From NCBI GenBank assembly GCA_016191165.1, contig JACPPF010000014.1, forward strand, positions 1 through 34,753: a stretch of 34,753 nt of DNA. Reading direction: 5' to 3'. This document shows positions 1 through 4,882 of the stretch, piece by piece. The notes beneath the pieces were generated by a model that was not told the DNA's origin, did no database searches, and saw nothing but the letters and a program-made list of their open reading frames with translations. The position numbers and the translations under genes were made by a program. The first letter of the stretch is position 1; each line of letters opens with the position of its first letter. Origin of the DNA: Planctomycetota bacterium (lineage in GTDB: Bacteria > Planctomycetota > Planctomycetia > Gemmatales > Gemmataceae).

Positions 1-192
1 CTTGACACCAACGACCTCATAGAAGGAACCCGTAGCCACGCCTTAAAGCACCTGTACAATCCCCTGAGCGTTTCAAGGGATGTCATCCTTTACTCGCTAA
101 CTCGAACGTGCGATCTTCCAATTCAGGCTGAACCAATACAGTTCCACTGGTGGAGGTCGGCAACTAGGTTACTTAATCCAAAAAACTCATAG
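1..192 (+). CDS. C-terminal end of an unknown protein, cut by the window edge
   Basis: Frame 1 is open from the first base to a TAG at 190-192, giving 63 residues with no start inside the window. The other two forward frames hit stops within the first 20 bases. The stretch is rich in ordinary residues (it ends with FHWWRSATRLLNPKNS) and base composition is less GC-rich than the core genes further right, as expected for an accessory region. I do not recognise the family. A chance open frame of this length is possible at this GC content, so the call is tentative. Confidence 0.35.
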   Translation, partial: LDTNDLIEGTRSHALKHLYNPLSVSRDVILYSLTRTCDLPIQAEPIQFHWWRSATRLLNPKNS

Positions 193-208
193 CGCATGAG
201 TCAAGTTT

Positions 209-281
209 GCATACTAGCCCGAAGCGTTAGCGAGGTTTTCCGTTGCAAGCGATCCCTCGCTTACGCTTCGGGCTAGTATGC
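209..281. repeat. Palindromic dispersed repeat (ARSVSEG type)
   Basis: Arms at 210-235 and 255-280 are 26 bases long and reverse-complementary with one mismatch, separated by 19 bases; one more base pair extends the stem outward. Read on the minus strand it encodes ARSVSEG. It resembles the palindromes at 8959-9021 and 26936-27000, which share an AGCCC...AGCG...AGCGAG-like core. It lies immediately beyond the point where the PfkB-like reading frame loses similarity to its family. Confidence 0.85.
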
Positions 282-527
282 GTGGGTTGCTTTGGTCTGA
301 GGTGGAAACCTCGCTAGCCGTTCGGCAGGAAAGCCGTGGGAAAGCCGGCTGATCGGCATGGCTCGCCAGCCGAGGTAACTGAGAATGGTGAGCACATTGC
401 CACACGTGCCACCAGCAAAGAAAGCCGGCACGCATTGCGACTGGGCATTGCAAACCACGTCCAGCGCGACGAGGCCAGTGCCAGTAATGGTGGGACGAAG
501 ACGACTTGTCGTGGCGCGCTTTTTCAT
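273..527 (-). pseudogene. N-terminal stub of a PfkB-family sugar/nucleoside kinase
   Basis: The first 62 residues (342-527) look like the N-terminus of a PfkB/ribokinase-family kinase: a first strand TGTGLVALDVV, then FAGGTCGNVLTILSYLGW, the glycine-rich substrate-binding motif (GGxxxN) followed by its helix, and ISRL. Beyond residue 62 similarity stops and the frame ends at 273 inside the palindromic repeat. A complete family member is about 300 residues and carries the catalytic GAGD motif near its C-terminus; that is absent. The ATG overlaps the TGA of the 377-residue gene upstream (ATGA), so the kinase was once translated in the same operon. Read as a truncated remnant; family assignment rests on the N-terminal motifs only. 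Confidence 0.6.
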
Positions 528-1657
528 TGGCTGAGCCCTTCCTTGCTGCTTTGGCCAACGTAGGCATCACCGTGGAGCCAAATATGAACTAGCTCGCCGC
601 TCGACGCGGCGACGGAATTTAACACCGTAAAGTTTACGTTGTACGCGATGGATTCGACGGAGACAACGGCAAAATCACGCTCCAGGGCCGCCATGAGTAT
701 CCCGAGCGAAAGGGCCTTGTTCCCCATCGGCGAGAGAATGAGCTGGGAACGACCCATCGCCTCAAACACCGGTGTTCGCGCATCGTCAATCCGGAGAATG
801 GTGCGGTAAAGATCTACTGGGTTTTTCTGATGCGCAAAAACGAGATCGCGGGTGTCGACATGCCAGGTGGTTTCAAAAGGGTCGCCGATGGAGTCGAATA
901 GGTCGCCATACTCTTCAATCAGCTGGTCCGGATCTCGCGGATGAGTTGCCGGAAATGGAAGAATTGGGCAAACCGCATGGGGCTTGACCAACTGGTGAAC
1001 CAAACGAAGGACCTCCCTCTTGCCCGGCCCGAGTTGGGGTAGCCAGAGCCTGGCCGCGTCGGTCATGGAGTCAAGGTTGAGACCGCCTTGAAAGGCATGC
1101 AATGGGCTGGCCTTGCCGCAAGATTCCGCCACAATTGCGCCGTCCGTTTTCGGATTGTCGAGAACAGCGACGTGAAGATTCAGTCCGGAGTTTCCCCCGG
1201 CTCGTTGGTAAAGGTACTTCGCGATGGGAAAAAACACTCCGACGGAAAGCGCGCTACAGTCAAGGATGACATCCGTAATGTTCGCGAGAGTGAGCAGCTT
1301 GTTGAGCAGGGCAGTTGCCCGGCGCCCACCAACGGCGGCCTCATCGATGTCGAAAATATCGAGGCGTTCGACTGCGCACCCAGCGCAAAGTCCGCGAAGG
1401 CTTTTTTCGTTTGCGTCGGCCACGTCGACAATTTCTTTGGCTGGTGACGGACGTTCTTCACGAATGAACAAAGCAGACAGGCGGGGTCCAGCGGCCTTTG
1501 AGAGAATCTGTGGCAACTGGGAGGTTCGAGGGTCGAAGCCGGCGCCAGCGATCAGTTGAATGCGCCGGTCGTCCTTGGCGAAATACTCCTCCACGAAGCG
1601 GACGGCGTCGTCGCCACGGTGGCTGATGCAAGGATCCCATCGTCGTGGCCGGTTCAT
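524..1657 (-). CDS. 377-residue protein of unknown function, middle gene of a three-gene cassette
   Basis: I do not recognise a named family. The protein is soluble, without signal peptide or membrane segment. Visible blocks are an N-terminal [18 protein letters not shown] (about residues 32-49), a central alternating strand/helix region with [20 protein letters not shown], and a C-terminal [20 protein letters not shown] followed by a strand with VVSVES. The last block has the shape of a Rossmann-like ligand-binding unit, but I cannot assign it. The ATG at 1657 overlaps the TGA of the upstream remnant and its own TGA overlaps the ATG of the PfkB-like stub, both as ATGA, which implies translational coupling of three proteins. 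It is the only member of the cassette that still looks full length. Being next to a broken integrase it is probably island cargo. Confidence 0.75.
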
Positions 1658-1845
1658 GGCTTCGTCTCCCGCGTGAAGCCGGCAACTTCGTCGGCGAAAC
1701 TCTTGATGAAGCCGCCACGCTTGAGCGTTAGACCGCTGGCAAGTAGCACCATGCCGCCAAGCTCAAGCAGACACCATTCGTCCTTTTGGCATGAGTAATG
1801 AGGAACAAGCGTGATTGCGTTGTATGCGACAGCGAACTGTAACAG
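1654..1845 (-). pseudogene. C-terminal remnant of the first gene of the cassette
   Basis: An open frame runs into the ATG of the 377-residue gene with an ATGA overlap. Its last about 55 residues (containing [20 protein letters not shown] and ending GFTRETKP) look like a genuine protein end. The 5' part is missing: upstream of about 1845 the DNA belongs to the integrase, in a different frame. No good start codon or ribosome binding site precedes it (the frame opens with TTG at 1863 inside the integrase sequence). The simplest reading is that a deletion joined the integrase 5' part to the 3' end of this gene. Family unknown. Confidence 0.5.
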
Positions 1846-2932
1846 CCGCGAGGTTCGAGGCAAAGGAATGGCGGAAGGCGTGGTATCCGCGGAGGACGTG
1901 CCACTTCGAGCCTTTCATTCCCGTGAGGAACGCTTTCCACGTCTGTCCATCCGTCAGCGTCACGTTCGGCTTTGAGCAAAAGGCATACACGCCGCCCGGA
2001 TGGTTTTCGGCGAAATACGTCCGCATCACCGATTCGAGAAACGGCGTCATGTCCACGGTGCGGAACGTCTCGCGGTCACGGTTCCGTTTCTTCTCCCGCA
2101 GAAGGACGAGTTTTGCATCGAAGTCCATGTCTTCGATTCGCGTCCGAAAGAGTTCGCTCCGTCGCGCGCCGGTGTGAGCTGCCGCGACGAGAAGCGGATA
2201 AAGATAGCGGTTTCTGCCTCTTCCACGAACGTGTTCGAGGACATCTGCAATCTCGGCAGGGTTGAGGAAGAGTCCGTCCCAGAGTTCCCGCTCTCGCCGT
2301 TTGTCGATGCCGCCTCGGGCAATAATGGCCTGAATCTGGGCGTAGGTGCGGAAGGGCTCCGGCTGCTTTTCTTTCGGGAAGACTAGCTTGACTTCCGGAA
2401 ATTTGCTCGGGACGTGTCCTTGGCGGTATGCCCAATTCCAGACGACGCGAAAGGTTGCCACGGCCTTCCGGACCGTCTTTGCCTTGACCGGGTGGCCGTT
2501 GAATTCCTCTCGGCTTCGCGCGTCCACAAATCTCTGCACCGTGCCGGCCGTCACTGAGGCAAGCAGCGTGTCCCCACCGATGATGCGGGTGAGGTGCTTC
2601 ATGTGAATGTCTTCCATCGCACGAGTGATGACCTCCTTCGCCCCGGCGGTGAATTCGGTTTGATAGGTACGAAATAGCTCGCTCAGGCGAACCGCCCGGA
2701 CCACTTCGACGGGCTTCTCCAGCCTACCGTCCGAAATCAGAAAGAGGCCTAGGTCGGCGCCCGGCGGAACGTCGAGCCTTCCCCGTTCGACGAGGCGGAG
2801 GTTTTCCTCCAGGCGAGCAAGGCAGCCGTTCGCCTCCTTCGGTTCGGTCGCCTTGAGATTGACGCGGAACTTTTCGCCCCTAAAACGAAACGCAATGCGA
2901 AATTTGTCGCCACGCTGTTCGAGCCAGGCCAT
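1763..2932 (-). CDS. Tyrosine recombinase (phage-type integrase), C-terminally truncated, probably inactive
   Basis: A site-specific integrase of 389 residues from the ATG at 2932, preferred over the TTG at 3016 because a GGGGG stretch lies just upstream and [17 protein letters not shown] is a typical integrase beginning. It has an N-terminal arm-binding region, a SAM-like core-binding domain and a catalytic domain with the first arginine in [12 protein letters not shown], the beta-strand lysine in LREKKR and the HxxR box in [13 protein letters not shown]. After NLAA (about 1843) the sequence becomes unrelated and ends 26 residues later. The second His/Trp and the nucleophilic tyrosine, normally 30-40 residues beyond HxxR, are missing. 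The protein should bind DNA but not cut it. It sits between a candidate attachment site on one side and cassette genes on the other, as an island integrase does. Confidence 0.85.
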
Positions 2933-3041
2933 GCAGCACCCCCGATAGTATTCGAATGGAACCGTGGGGTGAGAGCAATCGACGTAACCCCAACGCAGGG
3001 TCACGGCTGCCCCCAAATTGCCCCCAAACCTGGCTTCGGGA

Positions 3042-3076: not shown

Positions 3077-3119
3077 GGAAAACGCACGGTTCTTGCAGTT
3101 TTCGACGTGTCAATCGCTG

Positions 3120-3144
3120 GAGGGTTCGAATCCCTCGCCTTCCG
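3120..3144 (+). other. tRNA 3'-end-like segment, candidate attachment site of the island
   Basis: GAGGG-TTCGAAT-CCCTC (3120-3136) is a perfect five-pair T-arm with the canonical TTCGAAT loop, followed by seven bases GCCTTCC and a G that fit an acceptor strand and discriminator. No matching 5' acceptor strand GGAAGGC, D-arm or anticodon arm lies in the preceding 100 bases, so it is a fragment. tRNA 3' ends are standard targets of tyrosine recombinases, and it is next to an integrase gene. A G discriminator and room for a long variable arm would suit tRNA-Ser, but that is a guess. Confidence 0.5.
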
Positions 3145-3175
3145 CTTTCTTGCGCCTCGACGGCGGTTCAGGACC

Positions 3176-4882
3176 TCAGGAATTGGCGGGGCGCCCGAAA
3201 CACAGGAGCGTGATGTCGTCGTATTGTGATCCGCCCTCGGCGTGTTTCTGGACCGATTCGACAAGCCGTTCACCCAGCTTGCGAGCGCCGTGCGCGGCGT
3301 CTTTTTCGAGGACGGCGTGAATGCCCTTCATGCGGAACGGTCGCCCGTCCACGTTTTGCGCATCGGTGACGCCGTCGCTGAACAACACCAGCGAATCGCC
3401 GGGATTCAAGGTGATCTGGTAGCATTGATAGCGGCAGGCAGCCTGGTGGCCCAGCGATTGGCCGTCGTCTTCCGGCGGAATTGCCTTGGAGAATTTTCGC
3501 GCGGCGCCATGATAAAAAAGCGGCGTGGGGTGCCCCGCGTTGACCAGGGTCACCGTGTGGGAAACCGGATCGAGCACGGCCGCCACCAGCGTCACGAAGC
3601 GGTCCATCGGACTGGTGAACGGGTGCAGCAGCGTATTGAGGCGTGCGATGGCCGCGGTCAGCTGCCGGTCGGTCAGGACGCACGACCGAAACTCCGACGA
3701 CAGTCTCGCCATGAGCAGCGCCGCCGGCATGCCCTTGCCGGCCACGTCGCCGACGGTCAAGGCCAGGCGGCCCTCGGGCAGGACCAGGAAATCGTAATAA
3801 TCGCCGCCGACCTCGCGCGCAGCCTTGTAGTAGGCGAAAAACTCATACCCGGGCACATCGGGCACGCTCTTGGGCAGGAAATTGAGCTGGACCTGCTGGG
3901 CGATGGCGAGTTCGTTCTGCACGCGTTCCTGTTCGTTGCGGGCGCGTTCCTGGGCCAGTTCCTGCGCGAGACGCAGCTCTTGCAATTCGCTCTTGGCGCG
4001 CTCCTGGGCCAGCTCTTGCGTCAGCCGCAGCTGGTGCAGGCGCACGTTTTCCATCGCCAGGGAAACCTGGTTGCCCACGCCCCCGAACAGACGCAGGTCG
4101 TCCTCGGCGAATTTCTTGGCGGCATCCTGGGTATCGAGCTGGATGACGCCGAAGGGCTCGCCATTGGACAGCATGAGCGGCACGCACATGACCGACCGGA
4201 TGTGAAACAGATTGACGCTATGGCTGCTCGCGGGCAGCTTGTCCCCTTCACGTAATAAAAGCGCCTGGGCGGTCTTGAGGCATTGATGCACGATCGTCTT
4301 GCTGAACTGGAGGCGAACTTCGTCCACCTGGATGCGCGCCTTGGCGATCTTGGGCGTCAAGCTGCCGGCGGCCGGGTCGTACAGGATCAGAAAGCAGCGA
4401 TCCGCCTGAGGAAAGATCTCCAGAAGCCCATCGACAACCGCCGGCAGTTGCTGATCGAGTTCCAAGGTCTTGCTCAGTTTCGCGGTGATTTCGAGCAAGA
4501 GCGCCAGCTTCGCCGCCGGCTGGGTTTCGAGTTTGTGATCGCTTTTGGAACTCAGCATCGCCTCGACGGTGGAATCGTTGTCCACCTCGAGAAACGTCGC
4601 CTCGAAGTCGCACATCTTGATATGATCTTGATGGTTCAGCGCGACCTGCGTGTGATACTCCAGCCGTTGCTCGTTGACGTAGGTCCGGTTGCGGCTCTCC
4701 TTGTGATCCTCGATGTAGCACTTCTCGTTGATACGCAGGATGCGCGCGTGATATCGGCTCACCGAATCGAGTTTACTGATGATCTCGTCACAGTCCGGAC
4801 TGCGTCCCAACACGATGACGTCGCGATCGAGCTGGATGATTTCGCCCTGTCGTTCCCCGCGATCCACGTGGAGCAATGCCAT
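3176..4882 (-). CDS. FHA-GAF-SpoIIE (PP2C-type) serine phosphatase
   Basis: A cytoplasmic 568-residue signalling protein. Residues 1-100 form an FHA phosphothreonine-binding domain (LGRSPDCDEI, SVSRYHARI, NRTYVN). Residues about 125-280 form a GAF sensor domain (VMCVPLML, GVIQLD). A coiled coil at about 283-330 contains two near-copies of the unit LRLxQELAQERAxxE. Residues about 340-565 form an RsbU/SpoIIE-type phosphatase with the metal-binding acidic motifs AREVGGDYYDF, VGDVAGKGMPAAL, FSDGVTDA and DDITLL. Such enzymes dephosphorylate STAS-domain anti-anti-sigma factors; the STAS gene at 9229-9582 is an obvious candidate substrate. The ATG at 4882 is preceded by GGAGGGGG. It is transcribed alone, with a terminator downstream. 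Confidence 0.93.
   Translation of the reverse strand: MALLHVDRGERQGEIIQLDRDVIVLGRSPDCDEIISKLDSVSRYHARILRINEKCYIEDHKESRNRTYVNEQRLEYHTQVALNHQDHIKMCDFEATFLEVDNDSTVEAMLSSKSDHKLETQPAAKLALLLEITAKLSKTLELDQQLPAVVDGLLEIFPQADRCFLILYDPAAGSLTPKIAKARIQVDEVRLQFSKTIVHQCLKTAQALLLREGDKLPASSHSVNLFHIRSVMCVPLMLSNGEPFGVIQLDTQDAAKKFAEDDLRLFGGVGNQVSLAMENVRLHQLRLTQELAQERAKSELQELRLAQELAQERARNEQERVQNELAIAQQVQLNFLPKSVPDVPGYEFFAYYKAAREVGGDYYDFLVLPEGRLALTVGDVAGKGMPAALLMARLSSEFRSCVLTDRQLTAAIARLNTLLHPFTSPMDRFVTLVAAVLDPVSHTVTLVNAGHPTPLFYHGAARKFSKAIPPEDDGQSLGHQAACRYQCYQITLNPGDSLVLFSDGVTDAQNVDGRPFRMKGIHAVLEKDAAHGARKLGERLVESVQKHAEGGSQYDDITLLCFGRPANS

Follow-up and report, generated by a model that had tools for sequence, protein, structure and literature searches.

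Remnant of a five-gene CARF6, PRTase and PfkB set beside a truncated integrase in a planctomycete genome

Near the left end of the window (the whole stretch of DNA analysed, 34,753 nucleotides of a planctomycete contig) lies what is very likely a decayed copy of a five-gene set, in which gene 4, encoding a CARF6 protein, alone is whole. The identity assigned to its parts is close to certain. When intact, the set encodes, as genes 1 to 5, a SIS-HAD isomerase/phosphatase, a PRTase-CE protein, an ORC/CDC6-like AAA+ ATPase, CARF6 and a PfkB-family kinase. Our preferred reading is that the set is a mobile conflict (defence) system built on phosphosugar/PRPP chemistry (probability about 0.62).

Leftward from position 3016 on the minus strand run a tyrosine integrase and ORFs of 69 aa (1654-1863), 377 aa (524-1657) and 84 aa (273-527). 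The initial annotation had placed the three ORFs at these positions and coupled them by two ATGA overlaps, both of which are present, the plus strand reading TCAT at 524-527 and at 1654-1657. The 69-aa tail was matched by the operon ATPase profile (2e-24) and the 84-aa stub by the operon PfkB profile (2e-22). Since the CARF6, ATPase and PfkB profiles all match, and the gene order and overlaps recur in relatives, the three ORFs are not chance occurrences. Homology to the ATPase starts only near 1850, inside the ORF drawn from 1863: the tail is 64% identical to the ATPase of locus L007, where Stieleria sedimenti has an intact operon at L007:5024-12228 (tblastn, E 3.6e-24), and the ATPase profile run on the window's own genome matched 1669-1860, equivalent to model positions 573-636 of 640. 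The larger gene ending in LTLKRGGF, postulated upstream of the 377-aa gene, is the AAA+ ATPase of the set. The PfkB stub shares 54% identity with the L007 PfkB (tblastn, E 1.8e-18) in an alignment that stops at 315, and the PfkB profile matched 312-527 (model positions 1-72 of 352). This copy keeps the N-terminal glycine motif AGGTCGNV and is missing the catalytic end with the C-terminal GD motif. The first ~70 residues of the stub ORF are PfkB, the last ~14 codons coming from a dispersed repeat; 273-527 was accordingly rejected as a complete small protein, its end being repeat DNA.

Table 1. Features of the decayed cassette and its surroundings (positions are those of the window).
Feature	Position	Strand	Evidence
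CARF6 protein, complete, 377 aa; tandem CARF (Rossmann) ligand sensor without effector domain	524..1657	-	PADLOC, AF2, VIA-align
ORC/CDC6-like AAA+ ATPase, last ~65 codons; C-terminal stretch with LTLKRGGF	1654..1850	-	tblastn, own-genome profile
PfkB-family kinase, N-terminal ~70 residues	315..527	-	tblastn, own-genome profile
Dispersed hairpin repeat, 27-bp arms 209-235 / 255-281	183..316	.	own-genome copies
Tyrosine integrase, truncated; C-terminal box with catalytic Tyr missing	1850..3016	-	Phage_integrase E 7e-13
tRNA-3'-end-like sequence GGAGGGTTCGAATCCCTCGCCTTCCGC, possible att site	3119..3145	+	read by eye; adjoins integrase start

The locus had been described as a tightly coupled trio beside an integrase. 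The order of large gene, 377-aa gene and PfkB, broken at both ends, stands; the original set, however, comprises five genes, SIS-HAD and PRTase having gone unnoticed. PfkB is indeed left as an N-terminal stub, although its cut at a dispersed repeat had been overlooked. Likewise, the integrase does adjoin the cassette, but is itself truncated, the loss of its C-terminal catalytic part having escaped attention.

The 377-aa product, left without a family in the initial annotation, is a CARF6 sensor: the PADLOC model PDLC01916 (CARF6) matches residues 9-361 at E 6.5e-98 (326 bits) and a second PADLOC CARF6 model matches at E 8.8e-89, both nearly over the full length. For this protein Pfam gave no family match; none of the CARF6, PRTase or ATPase members searched is covered by an NCBIfam model (June 2026), and PDB sequence searches with the CARF6 and PRTase profiles returned no meaningful match. 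An AlphaFold (AF2) model of the window CARF6, for which the alignment consisted of the window and genome-contig loci only, reached a pLDDT of 90.7 and a pTM of 0.92. When compared by VIA-align, the top 20 rows were all CARF proteins (Z 14.9 down to 8.1), with Can1 as the best match (6sce_A, Z 14.9 over 232 residues, rmsd 3.1). Cation-chloride-cotransporter C-terminal domains, placed above CARF proteins by plain Foldseek, were rejected at TM-scores of about 0.25 and rmsd of 18-20, the CARF fold standing clear in VIA-align. The model contains no effector domain and divides into two clear Rossmann halves, at about 30-190 and 200-365. A third CARF unit, as in the PADLOC family name (CARF6--CARF_CARF_CARF), is therefore not evident; that name denotes the sequence family of the 377-aa protein and implies no operon, ligand or function. 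Conserved loops (G40-F-D42-P-R44, D133-x-S135 and S309-P-x-G-x-K314) come just after core strands, with D42, D133 and S135 kept in 42/42 sequences and S309, P310 and K314 nearly so. Can1 is a type III CRISPR ancillary nuclease in which tandem CARF domains of one chain hold the activating cA4 between them (PMC6981274). The window CARF6 similarly has two CARF domains in one chain, but is without nuclease domains and lies outside a CRISPR locus. By offset (model 32 = Can1 3) rather than at the level of residues, D42 would correspond to Can1 Asp13, a cA4 contact.

A scan of genome contigs with the single CARF6 protein gave no match, and an alignment of three CARF6 proteins as query yielded 43 loci in the genome collection. 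Carriers are planctomycetes, alpha-, gamma- and other proteobacteria, acidobacteria, Zixibacteria and myxobacteria; within the window's own phylum, 3/392 genomes are carriers (the window genome and two others). The counts that follow refer to 43 distinct loci from other genomes, namely the genome-collection loci plus L005 and L006, minus the duplicates L025 and L037, and every locus was annotated with profiles built from two loci. All five genes were found in 35 of these 43 loci, and in 13 of the 14 plasmid loci. Three of the loci falling short (L005, L045 and L049) hit a contig end before PfkB and two (L018 and L041) begin at one; L044 and L046 are without PfkB and have a NADAR gene, and L012 is decayed. 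The order of large gene, CARF6 and full PfkB that the initial annotation had expected to recur was found across phyla, while homologues without these neighbours, or in housekeeping operons only, were not found. PfkB comes first in L027 and L031, and the order is PRTase-ATPase-CARF-SIS-HAD-PfkB in L034-L036 and L038; PRTase, ATPase and CARF are consecutive in all order variants. Four-base overlaps are the commonest spacing both from ATPase to CARF (15 loci) and from CARF to PfkB (14 loci). A NADAR gene, often antisense, is added in a subset of loci.

Two plasmids, pRt1078 of Rhizobium tumorigenes (L051/L103) and pRRI128_5 of Sinorhizobium meliloti (L056), each carry two PRTase-ATPase-CARF trios, the members of which are 24-37% identical within a plasmid, and one SIS-HAD/PfkB/NADAR module. 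Genes 2-4 form a block, which can be duplicated without a second such module, and we infer that the trio is a sensing/switching unit and that the remaining genes form a common metabolite module. On pRt1078 a patatin-like phospholipase gene lies between the two trios. Decay was also seen outside the window: in Singulisphaera (L032:8057-10588) the parts of a split CARF gene lie about 1.5 kb apart, in Rhizobium CC-CFT758 (L059) the PRTase, CARF and SIS-HAD frames are split, and the acidobacterial L012 has lost SIS-HAD, PRTase and half of the ATPase.

In the window, what is left of the integrase abuts the final ~65 codons of the ATPase at a junction near 1850, and the integrase frame continues out of frame into the ATPase tail, as read from the junction sequence and its translation. 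Because ATPase homology starts directly after integrase residues at this point, the C-terminal catalytic part of the integrase and the first ~570 codons of the ATPase have been lost. The junction is most simply explained by a deletion between the two genes, and by comparison with relatives SIS-HAD and PRTase would have lain inside the deleted stretch. At the other end, PfkB breaks off at residue ~70, where the hairpin repeat (183-~316) takes over. This repeat occurs at about 23 places in the same genome at >=95% identity, and the eight copies compared have a common span of 183 to 302-331. Several copies of the 134-bp element lie no more than about 120 bases from a contig end (C9, C65 and C29), so it may help to break the assembly. 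No PfkB match was found left of 183, the contig ending at position 1. The window's own genome (a 95%-complete assembly) gave no second copy of the ATPase, PRTase, SIS-HAD or operon PfkB, the PRTase and SIS-HAD searches being without a positive control in that genome; within this assembly the circuit is therefore not completed in trans. In the window the five-gene circuit cannot work, leaving the orphan CARF gene as a fossil that could at most serve as a ligand sponge. At position 277 it encodes Q, versus E in the other 41 sequences, a hint of relaxed constraint. Its GC3 is 0.63, as against 0.76-0.80 in four neighbouring core genes. ARAGORN detected no tRNA in the window and an Rfam search gave no match; the tRNA-3'-end-like sequence is unique in the assembly and could be an att site, with the full tRNA missing or at the island's other end. 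Beyond it, 3176-4882 encodes an FHA-GAF-SpoIIE phosphatase, apparently on core chromosome past the island edge.

The four enzymes accompanying CARF6 were characterised from the intact loci. Gene 1 is a double SIS phosphosugar-isomerase domain fused to a Cof/IIB-type HAD phosphatase. Its SIS half matches PDB 3hba and 8eol (E about 1e-5) and its HAD half matches Cof-type HADs among the PDB profiles (HAD-IIB), as well as Pfam HAD (4e-10); both the DxDGT and the SIS HGRH motifs are present in 23/23 sequences. Gene 2 matches Pfam PRTase-CE (6e-17), with an intact PRPP loop in 23/23. In gene 3, the PG-x-GKT columns of the P-loop are invariant. It matches Pfam PF24389 (ORC-CDC6-like) at E 2e-5 and 23.9 bits, below the cut-off of 27, and its model (pLDDT 89.3) finds ORC/CDC6, clamp-loader, STAND and BrxC ATPases at Z 9-11, the ORC/CDC6 values of about 10-11 being similar to those of clamp loaders and STAND. 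Gene 3 is thus predicted to be an ORC/CDC6- or STAND-like AAA+ ATPase, the ORC/CDC6 label deriving from the sub-cut-off Pfam match and the mid-range fold match. Gene 5 matches Pfam PfkB (1.5e-10), with fructokinases as the closest PDB profile (3e-18), and the PfkB proteins of intact relatives have the N-terminal glycine motif and the C-terminal GD motif in 20/20. A CPxC-type cysteine pair is found in 16/20 operon PfkB proteins. One such pair comes after a conserved HxFxxxCPxCG motif within the kinase and another is at the C-terminus, suggesting a metal-binding insert unusual for PfkB. In some loci the additional NADAR protein (Pfam 7e-27) belongs to the riboflavin-intermediate N-glycosidase family, and NCBIfam (June 2026) names a NADAR anti-phage family.

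Relatives of the set occur on 17 plasmids, and a search of phages and viral contigs for carriers returned 0 phages and 0 viral contigs. Among 160 flanking ORFs, the most frequent PADLOC/Pfam matches included Gabija GajB, Type I RM methyltransferase, MADS, PD-T7-1, and CBASS cyclase plus phospholipase. Mobile-element matches included relaxases, T4SS coupling proteins, TniB and transposases; Dpd is also among the neighbours. The 94 and 66 flanking ORFs matched 213 and 111 families, versus 35 for 111 control ORFs from other places in the same genomes; because the tallies are of models rather than genes, and the flanking and control sets differ in size and make-up, the enrichment is a tendency from which no rate can be quoted. 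The earlier proposal of an island-borne module is in agreement with the mobile and defence neighbours, the plasmids and the GC3 value; the defence part of that proposal stays interpretative, and we consider a conflict/defence-type role of the set probable.

A specialised metabolic or salvage operon, handling a phosphosugar or a modified nucleoside and using the CARF protein as an allosteric regulator only, with no conflict role, would present the same enzymes. Three of the five genes encode sugar-phosphate/nucleotide enzymes with intact active-site motifs, and the NADAR family of some loci also fits such chemistry. However, the conserved set has no recurring transporter, while it does include an AAA+ ATPase and a CARF sensor. 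Its patchy occurrence (3/392 genomes), on plasmids and with defence/mobile neighbours, and the repeated decay in L012, L032 and L059 would be unusual for a useful metabolic operon, and we hold this explanation to be rather unlikely.

The best-known role of CARF proteins is to read cyclic oligoadenylate (cOA) produced by CRISPR or CBASS enzymes. The five-gene set contains no nucleotide cyclase/CD-NTase (SMODS) synthase, and no cas genes were found in the conserved set or among the listed flanking families. Strong Cas10-palm matches were obtained in 5/32 host genomes and SMODS matches over cut-off in 6/32, absence counting for little in the many hosts that are draft or incomplete MAG genomes. 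Since most hosts searched are without Cas10 and SMODS synthases, a CRISPR or CBASS messenger is an unlikely ligand for CARF6. The window's own genome has a Cas10-palm match on another contig (G000:C97:6341-6739, E 2.6e-27), and so may encode a type III CRISPR-like protein outside the window. The operon PRTase matches the PADLOC PRTase_III-A models weakly. Both matches, together with a best fold match to the cA4-activated Can1 (PMC6981274), would suit a CARF6 that answers cyclic oligoadenylate from a Cas10 of type III CRISPR (or from a CBASS synthase) located elsewhere in the cell, with the enzymes as effectors. Such a dependence appears improbable given the low Cas10-palm and SMODS counts, even with several hosts being incomplete MAGs, and given flanks whose listed families include no cas genes. 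A counter-defence module, in which CARF6 as sponge or ring nuclease removes cOA and lets the element escape type III CRISPR/CBASS, would account for the frequent plasmid/island carriage and for a CARF without effector domain, but is very improbable, as it leaves four strictly linked enzymes unexplained and there are no phage or viral-contig carriers and no Cas10 in most carriers.

Under the preferred reading of a conflict system on phosphosugar/PRPP chemistry, the signalling details can be put forward only tentatively. The ATPase would act as threat sensor, the SIS-HAD and PfkB enzymes would prepare or remove a phosphosugar, and the PRTase would use PRPP to make or consume a nucleotide-like compound. 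CARF6 would bind a nucleotide-like ligand where its two CARF halves form a cleft; acting via the ATPase as switch, it would turn the PRTase on or off. By analogy, a nucleotide-depleting output instead of signal synthesis is a live alternative, because CARF-controlled HAD phosphatases deplete ATP and IMP in type III systems (PMC12715507). A further reading, possible though doubtful, is that the intact set would be an undescribed immune system with CARF-type signalling without a cyclase, in which the PRTase together with SIS, HAD and PfkB would make or destroy the messenger, and divergent sensor trios would use a common metabolite module.

The PRTase/HAD signal logic proposed here resembles that of the Ter systems (tellurite/phage-resistance type), for which PRTases and HAD phosphatases have been proposed to make a nucleoside/nucleotide-like signal that is read by ligand-binding proteins (PMC7824862). 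In contrast to Ter, the five-gene set has a CARF protein as its sensor and adds SIS, PfkB and an AAA+ ATPase, and no Ter proteins are among the Pfam matches of the conserved set. Chp, a CARF-HAD phosphatase effector of type III-A loci consisting of one membrane protein that has a single HAD (PMC12715507), similarly ties CARF control to a nucleotide-acting HAD phosphatase, whereas in the five-gene set the HAD is fused to SIS and the CARF is a separate chain. Unlike type III CRISPR ancillary effectors, the window CARF6 is without a fused effector domain and the conserved set without cas genes; CBASS requires an operon CD-NTase, of which the set has none. The CARF6 family itself is already known in PADLOC. 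A literature search for the five-gene combination found no description of it, and the set appears to be undescribed in the literature searched; the 2020 CARF classification of Makarova et al. was outside this search and may already note the operon. The window matters only as a fossil that exposes the set. The presence of a CARF reader together with PRPP/phosphosugar enzymes, in hosts mostly without CRISPR or CBASS cyclases, points to a different CARF ligand, and a defined gene set makes the existence of other CARF ligands a testable question.
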